Origin: Natrinema saccharevitans
GTDB taxonomy: Archaea > Halobacteriota > Halobacteria > Halobacteriales > Natrialbaceae
Length of the DNA: 64,000 nt
Direction: 5' to 3'
NCBI RefSeq assembly: GCF_001953745.1
Contig: NZ_LWLN01000001.1
Span: 682,001-746,000 of the forward strand
In this document: in pieces, positions 24,081-38,835 of the stretch
Numbering within the stretch: the stretch's first letter is position 1
How the letters are laid out: every line of letters starts with the position of its first letter
Notes under the pieces: generated by a model
The model's input: the letters and a program-made list of their open reading frames with translations, nothing else
Databases searched by the model: none
What the model was told of the DNA's origin: nothing
Made by a program: the position numbers and the translations under genes

Positions 24081-24539
24081 GCCGGACGCTGGCACTGCGG
24101 CGGTCGGTCGCTGTTGCTCTCCGGTGAGTGTCGCGTCCGCAAGGGGAAAAGCGTCCACGCTCCGTCGACGGCGTCGGAGCCTTGTTACCGACCCTCCGTG
24201 CAGTTCGTCGTATTTAAGTGCAGGACACCTATGTCAACTAGTATATTTTTATGCCGAGAAATCGCAGGAAGGCGAAACGAATCCGTCTCGCTTTTGGAGA
24301 TTGACCGTCGATGGGGGAGCGTGACCGCCGGTCGTTCCATCGATGAACGTGGTATGTGCGGGTCTTAGAACCCGTCTCAGGCTATCTCCTACCGTTCCAT
24401 CGTCTCGAGAGTGAGCGGCCGACGCCGGCGATCGACCGGTCGATTTCGCTGAGAGCGTCGGTCACGGGAAATACCAAAAGCGAAAACATTGGCCAAAAAT
24501 TTATTATGGTACGTTCGAGTTATCGGGCCAAGTTTCGAA
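24081..24539. other. Intergenic region with no convincing gene
   Basis: These 459 nt are less GC-rich than the flanking genes. I see plus-strand TATA-like stretches at about 24210 (TATTTAAG) and 24500 (AAATTTATTA, about 37 nt before the ATG at 24540) and a short inverted repeat CGGGT/ACCCG near 24358-24374. Small ORFs of up to about 44 codons are present but have poor composition, so none is called. Confidence 0.4.
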
Positions 24540-27443
24540 ATGGCTTCACGCACTGACATTCACCAAAGCCTGTTTCAGTTGTACGAACACTACGTCGGTG
24601 AACCCGACTCGAGCAAGGACGTCTACGGCTACTGGCTGTTCATCGTCGGCTACGTCATCGGGGCCGCGGGCGTGGCGACGTTCGTCGTCGGGTACGCCGG
24701 CGAGGGGGAGCCGTACACGCTGATCAGGGCCTCCGGGATCACCGCCGCGACCGGGCTCGCGCTCTGTCTGTTCGGGATCGTACTGATGTTACCGGTACGA
24801 AAACGGGGGATTCAGGCGAGTTTCGTCGGTCTGCTCGTCTCGTTTGCCGGCGTCGGCTTCTTCGGCTGGGCGTATCCGAACAACTGGCGGGAACTCGGCG
24901 TCGACTACAGCGTCGAGGTGATTTCGGTCTACACCCTCGGGATCGGTATCATCGCGGGCGTGACGGCCCTCGTTCCCGTTCTGACCGGCCAGCGCGGTAT
25001 GTTCGTCGAGGAGGAGGGCCAGACCGAGGACCCGCCGATCCTCACCGGCGACGAGATGGAAAGCGCCCAGTTCGCCGCCTTCCGTGACGACAACGGCGAC
25101 TGGCAGTGGCACGTCCTCCACCTCGAGGCACTGGCCCGGAGTACGGAGAGCGCGGTGACGCGGCCGGAGGCCACGGAGGGCATCGAGCGCGTGAAGTCCC
25201 AGATCAGCTCCGCGGGGCTGATGGAGCTGACGACCTCCGCGTTCCGGCTCTACGAGGACCGCGACGGCACCTGGCAGTGGACGCTCGCGCGCGACGACGG
25301 CTCGATCGTCGGTGCCTGTGCCGGCGAGTTCGACGAGCGCGACGGGGCCGAGGAGTCGGTGAGCTTCCTCAAAGACGAGGGGCCGGACGCCGACGTGATC
25401 GAGATCGAGGGGGCCGCGTTCACCTACGAGCAGCGCCGCGACAAGTGGTACTGGCAACTGGTCGACGACGACCGCGTCCCGCTGGCCTCGAGCGAGACGG
25501 GCCACTCGACGCAGGAACGCGCCGAGGAGGCCGCCCGGACCTTCGCCGAGCGGTTCGACCGGGCGCGGGTCCTCGACGTCGAGCACGTCGGCGTCGAACT
25601 CCGCGAGCGGGCCGACGGCTGGAGCTGGCGGCTCGTCGACGCCGCCGACGACGTCCTCGCGACCAGTACCGACGCCTTCGATTCCCGGCGCGACGCCGAG
25701 GAGGCCGCCGAAGCGCTGTTGCCCGAACTCGAGTCGGCGTCGGTCACCGTGGCCGGCGAGCCGACCTACGAATGCTACGAATCCGGCCCAGAGTGGCGCT
25801 ACCGGCTCGTCGACGAGAACGAACACGTCGTCGCGCGCAGTCCCGAGGGGACCGACGACCGCCTCGCGGTCGATACGTGGACCGAACAATTCGGCGACAA
25901 CGCCGCCGACGCCGACGTCGTCGAGATCGACGACGCGGAGTACGAGGTCTTCCCGGCCGAGGACGTCGACGCCGGCAGCGCCGCCTCGACGCCCGACGAC
26001 GACCTCCCCGCGGCCATCGAAGAACCCGAGCCGGCGGCAGACGGCGGGACGGCCGTCGACGCTCCCGACGCCGAGGACCCGAGCCCGTGGCACTGGCGGC
26101 TCGTCACCGACGACCGCGACGTCGTCGCCGCGAGTACCGAACCCCATCCCGACGCCGAGTCGGCGACCGACGCCATCGAGCGGGTCCGCCAGCAGGCCAG
26201 CGAGGCGGAACTCATCGAGTTCGAGAACGCCGCCTTCCAGGTCTACGAGGCCGACTCCGGCGAGTGGCGCTGGCGGCTCATCGACGAGGACGGCAACGTC
26301 CTGGCCGACAGCGGCGAGGAACACACCTCCCGCGGCGAGGCCGCCGAGGCGATGATGACGCTGAAAGAGCAGGCACCCGACGCCGAACTGCTCGAGATCG
26401 AAACCGCCGCGTTCGAACTCTTCGTCAACGAGGCCGACGAGTGGGGCTGGCGGCTCATCGACGAGGCCGGCAAGCTCGTCGCCGAGGACCCCGCGACCCA
26501 CCCGACCCGCGGGGCCGCCCGCCAGGCGATGAACCGCCTGCTCGAGCATCTCGATTCGGACGTGCGGACGATGGACCGGGCGATCTTCCAGCCGTACGCG
26601 ACCGAGGACTGGCACTGGCGGTTCGTCCTGCCGTCGGGCGAGACCGTCGCCGCCGCCGGCGAGGCACACCCGACACGGGACGAACTGGTCGACAGCCTCG
26701 ACGACGTGCGCGAGGCCGCTGTGTCGGCGCGCCGGCACACGATCGGCGACGTCTCGGTCCAGCTCTATGGCACCGACGAGTGGTACTTCCGACTGCTCGA
26801 TCGCGACCGCGAGGAGATCGCCGACGCGACCGTCTCCTACGGCGACCGCGAGGCCGCGATGGACGGCGTCGAGGGCCTCAAGCGACACGCGGCCGACGCG
26901 CCGATCTTCGCGATCGAGGACGCGGCGATCCGTGTCGACGATGCGGACGGCTGGTCGTGGGATCTCGTCGACGCCGACCGGACCGTCATCGCCGAGGCGG
27001 TCGATTCCGAACCCGACAGGAACGCCCTGCTCGAGGCGATCGAGGAAGTCCGTCAGCTCGCGCCGATGGCCGGCCGGGTCGACTTCGACGTCGCCTCCTT
27101 CGAACTCGTCGCCGACGAGGACGACCGCTGGCGGTGGCGGCTCATCGACGAGGACGGCCGGACCGTCGCGACCGGCTCCGAGACCCACGAGACGGCCGCC
27201 GACGCCCGCGACGCCCTCGCGGACGTCCGCGGCCTGATCGAGTCCGCCAGCATCCTCGAGATCGACAGCGTCTCGTTCGAACTCCACACCGCGGAGGACG
27301 GCTGGGTCTGGCAGCTCATCGACGAGTACGGCGCGACGATGGCCGAGAGCACCCAGACCTACGAGAACCGCACCGAGGCCCGCGAGGCGATGAACGACGT
27401 GAAGGCACAGGCCCCCGACGGCTGGATCACCTTCACCGAGTGA
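24540..27443 (+). CDS. Large membrane protein with 13 tandem DUF1508/HVO_2922-like repeats
   Basis: A 967-residue protein. Residues about 30-155 contain four membrane helices (YWLFIVGYVIGAAGVATFVV, then three more). The rest is a chain of about 13 related units of roughly 58 residues, each with a pattern like FELxxxxDxWxWRLIDEDGxxVA followed by a helical stretch; clear cores include GTWQWTLARDDG, EWRWRLIDEDGN, RWRWRLIDEDGR and GWVWQLIDEYGA. Single copies of this unit occur as small YegP/DUF1508 proteins. One linker (about residues 480-515) is Ala/Asp/Pro-rich. The protein is acidic and ends LDHLF-free, without an anchor, so the repeats are probably cytoplasmic or external depending on topology. 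It lies between the two CoA genes; role unknown. Confidence 0.85.
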   Translation: MASRTDIHQSLFQLYEHYVGEPDSSKDVYGYWLFIVGYVIGAAGVATFVVGYAGEGEPYTLIRASGITAATGLALCLFGIVLMLPVRKRGIQASFVGLLVSFAGVGFFGWAYPNNWRELGVDYSVEVISVYTLGIGIIAGVTALVPVLTGQRGMFVEEEGQTEDPPILTGDEMESAQFAAFRDDNGDWQWHVLHLEALARSTESAVTRPEATEGIERVKSQISSAGLMELTTSAFRLYEDRDGTWQWTLARDDGSIVGACAGEFDERDGAEESVSFLKDEGPDADVIEIEGAAFTYEQRRDKWYWQLVDDDRVPLASSETGHSTQERAEEAARTFAERFDRARVLDVEHVGVELRERADGWSWRLVDAADDVLATSTDAFDSRRDAEEAAEALLPELESASVTVAGEPTYECYESGPEWRYRLVDENEHVVARSPEGTDDRLAVDTWTEQFGDNAADADVVEIDDAEYEVFPAEDVDAGSAASTPDDDLPAAIEEPEPAADGGTAVDAPDAEDPSPWHWRLVTDDRDVVAASTEPHPDAESATDAIERVRQQASEAELIEFENAAFQVYEADSGEWRWRLIDEDGNVLADSGEEHTSRGEAAEAMMTLKEQAPDAELLEIETAAFELFVNEADEWGWRLIDEAGKLVAEDPATHPTRGAARQAMNRLLEHLDSDVRTMDRAIFQPYATEDWHWRFVLPSGETVAAAGEAHPTRDELVDSLDDVREAAVSARRHTIGDVSVQLYGTDEWYFRLLDRDREEIADATVSYGDREAAMDGVEGLKRHAADAPIFAIEDAAIRVDDADGWSWDLVDADRTVIAEAVDSEPDRNALLEAIEEVRQLAPMAGRVDFDVASFELVADEDDRWRWRLIDEDGRTVATGSETHETAADARDALADVRGLIESASILEIDSVSFELHTAEDGWVWQLIDEYGATMAESTQTYENRTEAREAMNDVKAQAPDGWITFTE

Positions 27444-33676: not shown

Positions 33677-36600
33677 TTACTCGCCTCCCGTCGCCGTCGG
33701 CGCGTTCACTTCGATCACCATCGACGCTTCGTCGTCGCTGGTCGTGACCGTATGCGTCGACGCGCCATCGGGTAACGACGACGTGAACGGAATTTCGGCC
33801 GACTGGCCGCCCGCGAGCGTCACGGTCGACTCGGCGACCGGCTGCCCGTCGACGCTGTAGGTCACCGTGTCCGTCCCCTCGAGATCAGCCTGATTCTCGA
33901 CGGTCGCAGTCACCGTCACCTGCTGGCCGGCCTCGCCGCTCTCGGGCGCGGAGAGGTCGGTCACCGCGATCGTCGCCGGCTCACCGCTCTCCTCGACGGT
34001 TACGGTCGTCTCCGCGGTCTCGTCGTCGCTCGCCACCGCGAGCGTGTACTCGCCGGGCTCGAGTCCTTCGGTCACGGCGTCGAACGCGGCCGGCTGGCTC
34101 TCGCCGGCCTCGAGCGAGACCGATTCGGTGTCGACGACGGTCCCGTCGATCGCGAGCGTGATCTCCTGCGTGCCCGCCTCGCCGCCGACGTTCTCGATAT
34201 CGGCGTCGACTGCGATCGTCTGTCCTCGCTCGACCGGACTGGTGACCGACGCGATCGAGACGTCGAACGCGGCGGGCTCGGACGGCCGAACCTCGCCGGC
34301 GGGCGGCGTCGCGACCGTCACCGGCTCCTCGTAGCCGTGGTTCGCGAAGTCGGCCCGCCAGACGAGCCGTTCGTCGTCGCTCTCGGGGACCCACTCGACG
34401 GTGAACGCGTTCTCGCCGGGTTCGAACCCGCTCGGTGGCTCGTCGACGGTCGTCCCCTCGACGAATTCGCTGTTCGCGGCGACCGCCGCGTCGTTGGGGT
34501 TCTCGTAGCCGAACGTGACCTCGATCGCGTCGCCGTCACCGGTGGGCTCCGTCTCCTCGATCGACAGCGACGGGAGTTCGGGCCGTGCCTCGTCGTCGCA
34601 GGCCTCGAGGTCGGGGTTCGGGTGATCGATCGACGCGAACGGGACCGCCTCGGGCGAGCTAATCCCGGAGATGTAGGTCCCGAAGGTGCCGTAGTCGGGC
34701 ACCTCGACGGTCACCTCGTCGCCGTCGATCGTCACGTTCCGTTCGTCACCCACCTCGAAGACGATCGTCCCGTCGAAGGGTGCCTCGACGTCCTCGCCGA
34801 CGGTGACGTAGTCCTCGATGATGGTGTTGCCGAAGCCGCCGGTGTCGTAAAAGCCCGTACTCGCCGCGACGCTATCCCCCGCCTCGAGGTCGGCCTCGAC
34901 GACCGCCCGCGAACAGTTCGCGAACGCGACGTCGAAGTCCGGGACCGCTCCGTCGACGGTGTACTCGACCTCGGCCGTCTCGATCGGCGTGCCGTCGTCG
35001 GCCGCGACGACCGACGCCTCGAGCGTCGAATTCGCCGACAGCGGCGGCTCGAGGTCGATCTCCCGCGGGCCGATCGTCTCGTTGGCCGCGAAGCGCTCGG
35101 TCTCCGCGAGTCGAGTCCCGTTCTCGTCGGCGACTGTCAGCGCGTACTCGACCGAGGCGTTGGCCGAGGTGACCGTCAGCGTCTCACCGTCGCCGGTCTG
35201 GTCGGCCACCGAGAGGTTCGCCGTCGGCTCGCCGGGCTCGGGCTCGACGACCGCGTACTCGATCGTGTCGTTCGCCAGGATCGCGTCGCCCGCGGCCGCT
35301 CGAACGGAGACGTCGACGCTCGCGTCGTCCTCGAGGGGCGGCTCGAGGTCGATCGACGCCTCGGCGATCGTTTCGTTGCCCTCGAACCGGCCGCTGTCGA
35401 CCCGCTCCCCGTCGTATTCGGCCGTCACGACGTACGGCACCGTCGCGCTCGTCGCGTCGATCTCGAGGGTGTCTCCCTCGCCCTCCTGATCGTCGACCGA
35501 TAGCGTCGCCTCGGGACCGTCGGAGCCGTTCGCGACGGCGTACTCGATCGTGTCGTTCGCGAGCGTCGTGCCGTCCTCGCCGACGATCGACACCTCGACG
35601 CTCGCGTCGTCCTCGAGGGGCGGCTCCAACTCGAGCGCGTGGTTCGTTACATCCTCACCGGCCGCGAACGGCTCACTCTCGACGGTGTCGCCGTCGTACG
35701 ACGCGGTCAGGGTGTAGGGGACGGTCGCGTTGGCCCCGTCGACCGTCAGCGTCGTCCCGTTGCCCTCCTGATCGTCGACCGACAGCGTCGCCTCGGGCTC
35801 GGCGGGCTCGTCGACAACGGTCACGAACGCACCGTCGAGGACCGGCGCGCCGCCCGCGGTGACGTACGGCACGTCGTCCTCACCGTCGGACTCGACGTAG
35901 CCGAACGCCTCGTCGCCGTCGGTGTCGTGGTGGACGACCGCGACGAGCGGCCCGCTCTCGTTCAACGGCTCCTCGAGGTCGACGGTCACGTTCTCGTGAT
36001 CGCCGGACTCGAGGGAGCTCGAGACGCCGACGATCGCGTCGGGATCGGCGTCGACGGCGACACCCTCGTAGACGGCGACGAACCCGCCCTCCGAGAGCGA
36101 GACGTCGGCGACGGTGACCGCGTCCCCGTCGCTCTCCTGATCGGGGAAGTCGATCGATGCGGTCCCCTCGATCCGGTCGGCCGTCTCGATGCGCTGCTCG
36201 ACCTCGATCTCGACGTGCTGGCTGATCACCGCGATCTCGTCGGTCCCTTCGGCGACGGCGTAGGCGGTCGCGTCGGCCGCGCTCTCCTGCGTTATCGTCT
36301 GGAGCTGCGTGATACTGATCCGCTGGGACTGGACGGCTCGCGCCGTCTCGGTCACGGCACTGCCGGCTGCGATCTGGACCTGCGTGATCGACGCGTCCTG
36401 CGCCTGCACGAGCGCCCCGCTGGCCCCGCCGTACGCGAGCCGCTGGACCTGCGTCACGTCGACGAGTTGCGTCTGGGTCACCGCTCCCTGACCGGCACCG
36501 AACGCGGCCGCTTGGACCTGTTCGACCCTCACCGCCTGCCGCTGTACGGCCGCCGTGACCGCGCCCTCCGCGGCCCCGACAGCCGCGGCCTGAATCTGTG

Positions 36601-37837
36601 TGACCGACACCGACTGTCGCTGGACCAGGACCCCGCCGGCGCTGCCGTCGGCGGCCGCCTGGATCGCCTCGACGCTCGCGTCCTGACCTTGGGAGATCGC
36701 ACCCTTGGCCGCGCCGAAGGAGGCCTCCTGTACCTGCGTGATCGAGACTCGCTGGACCTGCTCGAGCCGGATCGTCTGGACCTGTTTCAGCGAGCCGCGG
36801 CTCGCGCCCCGGGCCGCGGCCTGCGTCCCCTCGACCGACACGCGCTGTTTCTGGACGAGCGCGCCCTTCGCCGCGCCCGCCGCGGCCTTCTGAATCTGCT
36901 TGATCGTCGCCCGCTGGCGCTGCTCGGCGTCGACTCGCTGGCGCTGCTCGAGGGCGGCGGTCGCGCTCCCCTCGAGCGCGCCGGCGGCAGCGCCGGCCGC
37001 CGCGTGCTGGACGTGATCGAGGGTCACCTGCTGGCGCTGCTCGACGCTGATCGACTGATACTGCGTCAGGGCACCGTAGGCGGCCCCCTGTGCTGCCTCC
37101 TGGATCTTCGGTACCGCGCCGACGTCTTTCGCGCCCGCCTCGCTGGCGGCCCCGGCCGCCGCGCCGCTGGTGGCCACCTGCAACTGCTCGACGCTGACAC
37201 GTTGTCGCTGGGCGACCGCGCCGTGTGCGGCCCCCCAACTCGCGCTCTGGAGTTGGGTCGCGTTGGCCGACTGCGACTGCGAGAGCGCTCCGCCGGTCGC
37301 GCCGCCGACGGCGTACTGCACCTGCGTGACGTTGACCGACTGTTGCTGTATCAACGTTCCGTGAACGGCCCCCGTTGTCGCCGCCTGTACCTGGTCAGCC
37401 TCGACGTTCTGGGACTGCAACACCGACCCCTGTGCGCCCTCGAGCGCCGCCGCCCGCTGTTCCTGGGTCACCTCGACTCCCTGGGACTGGACGAGCGCGA
37501 CTCCCTCGCTGACGCCCTCTTCGACGGCGTCCTCGCGCTCGCTCTGGGCCGCCTCCGCGGTCGTCCCGCCGACGTCCGCGTCGGTTCCCGTCTCGTCCGT
37601 CGCACCGGGCGGCGGCAGCCGTATCGGATCGAACCCGTCTCCGCTCGCCGCGTCGCCGTCGCTCTCGTTTTGAAACTGTGTCTGCGCTTCGGGACCGGGA
37701 GGCGATGCAGCGTCCGTCTCCGTTCCCGCGTCGTCCCCGGCGATTCCCTCGAGCCCCCCGAGCAGCGGCACGGCGACGACGCTGGCGACCATCGCGACGG
37801 CGATCACCGCGACCGCAGCGATCCGGCGACGGCTCAT
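33677..37837 (-). CDS. Secreted multidomain protein with a Gln-rich 23-residue repeat, DUF7282-like and CARDB domains
   Basis: A 1386-residue exported protein. Residues 1-30 are a Sec-type signal (MSRRRIAAVAVIAVAMVASV). Residues about 30-105 are acidic linker. Residues about 110-550 consist of about 16 units near 23 residues with a Gly/Ala half (GAAxGAL) and a Gln/Val half (QxQxVSVxQxQ); some units carry an extra eight residues. Next come a DUF7282-like domain (from TASIDFPDQESDGDAVTVAD), three related domains of about 85 residues (each starting ATLSVDDQEG or NLSVADQTG), a domain with two Cys, and two CARDB-like Ig domains at the C-terminus. No PGF-CTERM, LPXTG-like or membrane anchor is seen at the end. 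It is probably a cell-surface or extracellular matrix protein. The ATG at 37837 is chosen because it places the signal peptide at the start. Confidence 0.8.
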   Translation of the reverse strand: MSRRRIAAVAVIAVAMVASVVAVPLLGGLEGIAGDDAGTETDAASPPGPEAQTQFQNESDGDAASGDGFDPIRLPPPGATDETGTDADVGGTTAEAAQSEREDAVEEGVSEGVALVQSQGVEVTQEQRAAALEGAQGSVLQSQNVEADQVQAATTGAVHGTLIQQQSVNVTQVQYAVGGATGGALSQSQSANATQLQSASWGAAHGAVAQRQRVSVEQLQVATSGAAAGAASEAGAKDVGAVPKIQEAAQGAAYGALTQYQSISVEQRQQVTLDHVQHAAAGAAAGALEGSATAALEQRQRVDAEQRQRATIKQIQKAAAGAAKGALVQKQRVSVEGTQAAARGASRGSLKQVQTIRLEQVQRVSITQVQEASFGAAKGAISQGQDASVEAIQAAADGSAGGVLVQRQSVSVTQIQAAAVGAAEGAVTAAVQRQAVRVEQVQAAAFGAGQGAVTQTQLVDVTQVQRLAYGGASGALVQAQDASITQVQIAAGSAVTETARAVQSQRISITQLQTITQESAADATAYAVAEGTDEIAVISQHVEIEVEQRIETADRIEGTASIDFPDQESDGDAVTVADVSLSEGGFVAVYEGVAVDADPDAIVGVSSSLESGDHENVTVDLEEPLNESGPLVAVVHHDTDGDEAFGYVESDGEDDVPYVTAGGAPVLDGAFVTVVDEPAEPEATLSVDDQEGNGTTLTVDGANATVPYTLTASYDGDTVESEPFAAGEDVTNHALELEPPLEDDASVEVSIVGEDGTTLANDTIEYAVANGSDGPEATLSVDDQEGEGDTLEIDATSATVPYVVTAEYDGERVDSGRFEGNETIAEASIDLEPPLEDDASVDVSVRAAAGDAILANDTIEYAVVEPEPGEPTANLSVADQTGDGETLTVTSANASVEYALTVADENGTRLAETERFAANETIGPREIDLEPPLSANSTLEASVVAADDGTPIETAEVEYTVDGAVPDFDVAFANCSRAVVEADLEAGDSVAASTGFYDTGGFGNTIIEDYVTVGEDVEAPFDGTIVFEVGDERNVTIDGDEVTVEVPDYGTFGTYISGISSPEAVPFASIDHPNPDLEACDDEARPELPSLSIEETEPTGDGDAIEVTFGYENPNDAAVAANSEFVEGTTVDEPPSGFEPGENAFTVEWVPESDDERLVWRADFANHGYEEPVTVATPPAGEVRPSEPAAFDVSIASVTSPVERGQTIAVDADIENVGGEAGTQEITLAIDGTVVDTESVSLEAGESQPAAFDAVTEGLEPGEYTLAVASDDETAETTVTVEESGEPATIAVTDLSAPESGEAGQQVTVTATVENQADLEGTDTVTYSVDGQPVAESTVTLAGGQSAEIPFTSSLPDGASTHTVTTSDDEASMVIEVNAPTATGGE
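36250..37510 (-). repeat. Protein-level tandem repeat region within the secreted protein
   Basis: About 16 degenerate units encode a 23-residue motif whose two halves are GAAxGAL and QxQxVSVxQxQ. The DNA of the units is diverged, so this is an old protein repeat rather than a recent DNA duplication. Confidence 0.75.
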
Positions 37838-38250
37838 CGGCTGCCCCCACCGACCGCCGATTCCACGGTCGCCGCCGGCGCAGCCACCCCGACGACGCGT
37901 TCGATTGCCCACCACCCGTTACGGCCCCGCCCGGTGTTCGCAGTACGGACTCCCATCCCTCGCCACGGGACCGAATCGAGCCATAAGCCCGGCCGGTCGT
38001 TCCGGTTAGCGCGGCGAGACAATCAGATATTACCGCGCCCCGGTCCGCGAGAACCCGCTGCAACTGGCCGGCACCGCCGCTCTCGAGCGCCTCGAGCCGC
38101 GACCGGGACCGTCACGCGAACCGGAACGAAGCGCCCTGTTTCGGACGGATCGTCTCGGTATCGAGCCGCCGCTCGACCCGTTCTGTCATCCGATCGACCG
38201 GATGTTTCGGAAACCGAAGTATTGATCCGGGTTTACGAGAGAGCGGGGGT
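37838..38250. other. Intergenic region between divergent genes, no gene seen
   Basis: These 413 nt separate the secreted protein gene and bioY, which are divergently transcribed, so both promoters must lie here. I find no strong TATA box; GTATTGATC near 38219 is a weak candidate for bioY. No BirA-type operator palindrome could be recognised by eye. Confidence 0.35.
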
Positions 38251-38835
38251 ATGGCAACGGAACGGAATTCGGTCGAGTTAGTCGACGACGACGCCGTCCG
38301 CTCGTTCGCGCGGGCGGCCATCCTCGCGGCACTGATGGGGGCCGCGGCCGTGGTGGGATCGATCCCGATCCCGTTCTCGCCGATCCCGATATCGCTCGGG
38401 GTCCTCGTCGTCTACCTGATGGGGCTGTACCTCGGTCCGTACTGGGGAACGGTGTCGATCGGGCTCTATCTGACCGCCGGCGCGATCGGAATCCCGGTGT
38501 TCGCCAACGGAACGGCCGGCGTGGGCGTCTTGCTTGGTCAAACCGGCGGCTATCTCGTCGCCTACCCGCTCGCCGTACTACTGATCGGGGCCGTGGTTCA
38601 CGGCACCGACGGCCTCGCGGATCCCGCGGACGCCTCGGCGCCGGTCCTCGTCGCAGCGTTGCTCGCGGCGCTGATCGTCATCTACGGGCTCGGGACGGCG
38701 TGGTTCGCGTACGCCCTGGAACTCGGGGCGATCGAGGCGCTCCAGCTCGCCGTCGTCCCGTTCGTCCCGGGTGACCTGCTGAAGATCGTCGCCGCGATCG
38801 TGATCGTCAAGGCCGGCCACATCGATCCGACGTGA
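38251..38835 (+). CDS. bioY: Biotin transporter substrate-binding subunit BioY
   Basis: A 194-residue membrane protein of six helices, the S component of the biotin ECF transporter. The characteristic pieces are IPIPFSPIPISLGVLVVYLMGLYLGPYWG, a glycine-rich GAIGIPVFANGTAGVGVLLGQTGGYLVAYP and FVPGDLLKIVAAIVIVK. It binds biotin in the membrane and works with the ATPase and T component encoded next on the same strand (19 and then 49 nt gaps), so the three genes form an operon. Confidence 0.92.
   Translation: MATERNSVELVDDDAVRSFARAAILAALMGAAAVVGSIPIPFSPIPISLGVLVVYLMGLYLGPYWGTVSIGLYLTAGAIGIPVFANGTAGVGVLLGQTGGYLVAYPLAVLLIGAVVHGTDGLADPADASAPVLVAALLAALIVIYGLGTAWFAYALELGAIEALQLAVVPFVPGDLLKIVAAIVIVKAGHIDPT

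Follow-up and report, generated by a model that had tools for sequence, protein, structure and literature searches.

A conserved array of 23-residue repeats in a probably surface-located protein of haloarchaea

A 64,000-nucleotide stretch of the Natrinema saccharevitans genome (contig NZ_LWLN01000001.1, positions 682,001 to 746,000; hereafter the window) encodes a large multidomain protein that carries an array of 16 units built on a 23-residue repeat. The array is under purifying selection, and its conservation is ancient and runs unit by unit. With about even confidence, we read this protein as a conserved haloarchaeal product that is exported and probably located at the cell surface, with an N-terminal head of 16 one-helix repeats of fixed length set on a beta-sandwich stalk. 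The repeat family is new to the libraries searched here; as a kind, the repeat-headed multidomain surface protein is well known.

The repeat array and its conservation

An earlier note, made on this DNA from its letters alone, had described about 16 Gln-rich units of 23 residues at 36250-37510, each combining a Gly/Ala half with a half of alternating Gln and Val. We identified 16 units (U1 to U16) within slightly different limits (Table 1), of which nine are exactly 23 residues long and the others 25, 26, 26, 27, 31, 31, and 39. The consensus derived from 733 distinct units of the relatives, chosen by at least three of G5, G9, Q13, and Q15, reads A1 A2 A3 x4 G5 A6 A7 x8 G9 A10 L11 x12 Q13 x14 Q15 x16 V17 S/T/N/D18 V19 E/T20 Q21 I/V22 Q23, with A2, G5, G9, [LVI]11, Q13, Q15, [VA]17, [STND]18, [VIA]19, Q21, [IVL]22, and Q23 as the conserved positions. 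Both halves are thus present in the sequence, and positions 12-23 alternate in variability. Residue identity at a lag of 23 is 0.293; in 500 shuffles, no lag between 2 and 39 gave more than 0.192. When the motif QxQx[AVIT]x[AVIT]xQxQ was searched as a 33-base pattern, all 14 matches in the whole 3.98 Mb genome fell inside the array, and the reversed pattern gave three matches genome-wide. The earlier description of the sequence was correct, because unit count, consensus, lag-23 identity, and the genome-unique Gln/Val pattern agree.

Unit lengths in the relatives mostly fit the series 23, 31, 39, 47, and 55, plus 26, and these steps of eight mark the 8-residue QxQxVxVx stretch as a genuine module of the array. 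Pairwise identity between canonical units averages 46% in residues and 56% in bases, and Tandem Repeats Finder reported a single two-copy piece within the array. Recent tandem duplication or slippage was ruled out on this nucleotide identity and because orthologous units stay alike.

Repeat number and unit identity are constant over 26 Natrialbaceae orthologues. The stretch U1-U7 comprises 180 residues in all orthologues but one and U9-U16 comprises 196-197 in all, whereas length change is confined to the U8 spacer and occurs mostly in 8-residue steps. Conservation within the protein peaks in the array, where mean identity is 0.73-0.74 compared with 0.44-0.68 in the downstream domains, and its ratio of nonsynonymous to synonymous substitution rates (dN/dS) is approximately 0.17-0.30 compared with 0.31-0.53 elsewhere in the protein. 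This constancy suggests a defined structure rather than a polymerizing low-complexity segment.

Distribution and novelty

The array profile matched 80 of 292 haloarchaeal genomes sampled, representing 30 of 77 genera. Orthologues occur in all 29 genomes of Natrinema; one further family is frequently positive (25 of 28 genomes) and two others are rarely so (7/170 and 14/146). All 20 positive genomes of a phylum-wide sample belong to the same order. A viral or plasmid origin was rejected, since no array match was confirmed among the viral contigs searched and only two plasmid records, both haloarchaeal, contained one.

No family match to the array was found among Pfam, NCBIfam, and PHROGs models, Pfam matches to known repeat or solenoid families were at chance level (best E 0.038), and no PDB sequence matched. 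A literature search returned no paper on DUF7282, a domain that follows the array, and no haloarchaeal paper combining the term glutamine-rich with repeats. The result is the definition of an uncatalogued 23-residue repeat family, common in Natrialbaceae and patchy in other families, within a class of surface proteins with mostly uncharacterized functions.

Export and surface location

The window protein is probably exported, as judged from its N-terminus, where a strongly hydrophobic stretch (a putative signal sequence) follows SRRR. DUF7282 and Ig/CARDB-like domains were found downstream of the array, which agrees with the earlier picture of a secreted protein with Ig-like and DUF7282-like domains. 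In distant members of the family, the array lies near the N-terminus and is followed by variable combinations of TSP3 repeats, CAP, DUF7282, beta-helix, and Thr/Pro-rich or acidic stalks; the C-termini of seven of them (L058, L059, L092, L094, L098, L104, and L105) are strongly hydrophobic. Because relatives place the array before stalk-like regions, several with C-terminal membrane segments, we read it as a putative head, outermost on an adhesin or scaffold of the cell surface. A head-stalk-anchor layout would be the simplest reading of these domain orders.

Some of the relatives deserve separate mention. In Halorarius halobius (L058, 4171-9600, plus strand), the array is combined with TSP3 repeats and a CAP domain, and the protein has a hydrophobic segment at its C-terminus. 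Another species of the genus encodes a small paralogue (L100, 2098-3141, minus strand) with an SRR start resembling a twin-arginine translocation (Tat) signal, followed by a few array-type units and then Lys-rich sequence; its tail contains three motifs of the QSQSVxVxQxQ type that lack the Gly half. Small proteins with Tat-like starts were also identified in other species of the genus (L153 and L155); they contain Gln/Val motifs (QSQRIVVTQGQ, VTQRQEVHVEQSQ) without the Gly/Ala half.

Fold of the array

Structure prediction, which the earlier note had suggested as a check, returned two poor AlphaFold2 models, one with helices and one with strands. Model 1, computed from an alignment of 29 rows (the window and 28 loci), shows approximately one helix per unit over most of the array, with the best block confidence (76) at the N-terminus. 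Model 2 covers U1-U7 only and used a 48-row alignment including register-shifted rows. The N-terminal cap is the only part that is helical in both. Because AlphaFold2 could not decide, we relied on unit statistics for the fold.

In 81% of the 733 units, position 18 is one of S, T, N, and D, as expected of a helix N-cap, and within the Gly/Ala half the four positions that vary most (1, 4, 8, and 12) span at most 80 degrees on a helix, as only 1% of four-position choices do. Couplings were computed by mean-field direct-coupling analysis (DCA) for 710 pairs of adjacent units (effective number 199), leaving out the positions used for unit selection. Compared with a composition-matched independent-column null, the Gly/Ala half couples at i+3/i+4 (3-6, 3-7, 7-11, 6-10, and 8-12) in both unit copies. 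Adjacent units couple in an antiparallel manner (a3-b8, a8-b3, a1-b10, and a10-b3), with a statistic of 0.88 and a null standard deviation of 0.15 under random unit pairing; the parallel statistic for adjacent units is negative, and the antiparallel pattern is not seen between next-nearest units. The pattern recurs in near and far relatives taken separately, and in three non-redundant subsets the observed value was reached by 1/150, 0/150, and 3/150 shuffles. Parallel packing of units i and i+2 was rejected, being absent from the non-redundant sets. A helical Gly/Ala half and antiparallel packing of neighboring units are therefore supported, not proven.

In the structure we propose, residues from about position 19/20 of one unit to position 12 of the next (V-T-Q-I-Q-A-A-A-x-G-A-A-x-G-A-L) would form one short Ala/Gly helix, started by the S/T/N/D N-cap at position 18, and the QxQxV stretch would link into the next helix. 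Successive helices might pack antiparallel via their small Ala and Gly residues, giving a rigid, nearly uncharged rod whose shape may be alpha-solenoid-like or that of a layered helical array. The head could then act as an adhesive or scaffolding surface element that binds neighboring cells, matrix, or S-layer. A role in adhesion or as a scaffold, either on the cell surface or within the matrix, appears most likely.

Several points weigh against this proposal. Both AlphaFold2 models are of low confidence (mean predicted local distance difference test score 43 for model 1 and 38 for model 2) and contradict each other, and model 2 gives four long strands. Positions 12-23 alternate between conserved and variable as a strand would, an alternation that alone does not demonstrate a strand, and units of 31, 39, 47, and 55 residues contain additional QxQxVxVx modules of eight residues, which suit a strand better than a helix. 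The antiparallel statistic was chosen after the first coupling list had been viewed, it comes from mean-field DCA with an effective sample of approximately 200 and phylogeny removed only in part, and in the non-redundant sets its signal amounts to only a few null standard deviations. As to an anchor, the Natrialbaceae proteins themselves show no clear one at the C-terminus: a hydropathy scan found no C-terminal membrane segment in the window protein, in line with the earlier note, and hydrophobic C-termini were absent from the orthologues except for weak ones in L040 and the contig-truncated L051.

We continue to consider two strand-containing structures beside the helical head; the main reasons are the alternating positions and the 8-residue modules. 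In the first, which we regard as unlikely, the array would be a beta-solenoid or cross-beta surface fiber, in which the QxQxVxVxQxQ halves stack in register with Gln ladders, the Gly/Ala halves serve as turns, and copies polymerize into matrix fibers. Conserved and variable positions indeed alternate strictly over 12 residues, modules of exactly eight residues preserve the alternation, and the strands of model 2 match this arrangement, at very low confidence. Similar motifs that lack the Gly half (in L100 and the two small secreted-looking proteins), the near neutrality of the array, and the Congo red- and thioflavin T-positive matrix of Haloferax volcanii biofilms (PMC4180959) also point in this direction. 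However, the i+3/i+4 coupling and the N-cap statistics are helical, and in-register strand stacking was rejected from coevolution because random unit pairing gives the same value (0.76 against 0.77). The constancy of unit number and the unit-specific conservation among Natrialbaceae, the lack of a curlin match above the Pfam cut-off, and the approximately 870 residues of other sequence that follow the array in one large single-copy protein are also unfavorable to a fiber. Together with the antiparallel neighbors, these observations leave little in favor of the amyloid-like mechanism that the earlier note had put forward.

Next in order, and likewise unlikely, is an alpha/beta solenoid, in which each unit would contribute a helix from the Gly/Ala half and a strand from the Gln/Val half, stacked in parallel as in leucine-rich repeats (LRRs), with Gln ladders within the chain and a monomeric head or adhesin as the product. 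One half is helix-like by statistics and the other alternates like a strand, and each AlphaFold2 model draws one half in the matching state. Such a solenoid predicts parallel adjacent helices, whereas the observed coupling is antiparallel, and no LRR or solenoid match was found in Pfam.

We consider it improbable that the array is a new repeat fold with which this haloarchaeal family makes extracellular fibers or matrix, near-neutral Ala/Gly/Gln helices or Gln-ladder strands assembling laterally or end to end. If it were, the array would belong to the protein part of a matrix such as that hinted at by the amyloid-dye staining of H. volcanii biofilms, for which our search turned up no established gene, only a suggested candidate, HVO_1403 (PMC4180959); nothing in this analysis connects the window protein to that staining. 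A flexible or disordered Ala/Gln/Gly-rich spacer is very unlikely: AlphaFold2 confidence is low and the composition is of low complexity, but the array is the best-conserved region, with unit-specific invariant residues and constant length.

Gene layout and neighborhood

The features of the gene are listed in Table 1. We set the start at M27 because starts are conserved among the orthologues, which share the start context (Met, basic residues, and a hydrophobic stretch). DUF7282 scored 116.2 bits against a cut-off of 27. Acidic residues (Asp and Glu) make up 7.7% and basic residues 6.7% of the array, compared with 23-25% acidic residues in the remainder of the protein. For a protein in contact with high salt this charge is very low, and the fold of the array would therefore shed light on the solubility or assembly of surface proteins in halophiles. 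The protein is also a concrete candidate for testing adhesion and matrix in haloarchaea. Within the genus, N. gari J7-2 is genetically tractable and is reported to have been edited by means of its own CRISPR-Cas system (PMC10433800).

Table 1. Features of the array gene; positions are those of the window.
Feature	Position	Strand	Basis or remark
Whole gene	33677..37837	minus	~1386 aa; start M27 of the listed GTG open reading frame 33677-37915
N-terminal basic and hydrophobic segment, signal-peptide-like	37766..37837	minus	17-residue mean hydropathy 2.82
N-terminal linker, poorly conserved	37547..37735	minus	Mean identity 20% among orthologues
Array of 16 units, U1-U16	36299..37534	minus	Consensus AAAxGAAxGALxQxQxVSVTQIQ
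Unit 1, cap at the N-terminus; its Gly half is charged and helix-like	37454..37534	minus	Drawn as helix by each AlphaFold2 model
U7 (one extra 8-residue QxVxVxQx module) and U8 (two such modules)	36890..37099	minus	Unit segmentation
U10, with one extra 8-residue module	36728..36820	minus	Unit segmentation
U17, degenerate C-terminal unit or cap	36170..36298	minus	Unit segmentation, orthologue conservation
DUF7282 domain (PF23951)	35819..36160	minus	Pfam, E=1.1e-33
Three Ig-like repeats (DQxGxGxTLTV..LEPPLExxAxxxVxVV)	34961..35794	minus	Read from sequence, without Pfam match
Conserved region with two Cys	34331..34960	minus	Without Pfam match
CARDB-type domains (PF07705, two stretches)	33731..34318	minus	Pfam, E=1.1e-12

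The gene is flanked on one side by bioY and genes for an energy-coupling factor (ECF)-type ATPase and a CbiQ-type protein, and on the other by DUF7557, DUF5799, and universal-stress-type genes; both flanks are retained beside nearly all Natrialbaceae orthologues. An open frame of 880 residues (35639-38281, plus strand) runs antisense to the array and the upstream region and most likely results from the codon usage of high-GC DNA. A formyl-transferase-like gene (PF00551; 32754-33581, plus strand) is convergent with the array gene. Elsewhere in the window, a gene at 24489-27443 (plus strand) encodes a protein of 984 residues in which an N-terminal DUF7139 region precedes numerous tandem DUF1508 (YegP-like) repeats.

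Comparison with known systems

The curli proteins CsgA and CsgB are extracellular and contain repeats with conserved Gln and alternating hydrophobic residues. The array repeats resemble those of curli (PF07012) in length, conserved Gln, alternating hydrophobic residues, and a probably extracellular location. The minimal curli repeat is X6QXGX2NX10 (PMC3521004). Unlike curli, the array lacks the QxGxxN core (its consensus after Q21 is x-Q-A-A-A-x-G), has a helix-like Gly/Ala half, and is a fixed part of a large multidomain protein. No curlin match above the Pfam cut-off was found in any of 26 genomes, and the window genome gave none up to E 10; 3 of 14 control genomes gave a match to PF07012, one of them above the cut-off. 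Csg-like genes were absent from the locus neighbors examined, and no genome-wide search for CsgG was made. Membership in the curli or amyloid group was rejected on PF07012, repeat motif, and gene context.

Leucine-rich repeats are similar in unit length and, on one of the alternative readings, would share a strand and a helix per unit, but the array has no LRR match and conserves Gln, Ala, and Gly rather than Leu and Asn. Alpha-solenoids of the TPR, HEAT, and Sel1 types differ in having a helix pair of 34-40 residues in place of a 23-residue single-helix unit, and no Pfam repeat family matched the array; the likeness would lie in the antiparallel packing of successive short helices that coevolution suggests. 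With the haloarchaeal DUF7282 (PF23951) proteins, the window protein and several distant array proteins have the DUF7282 domain in common; the 23-residue array lies apart from this domain and is not described in Pfam.

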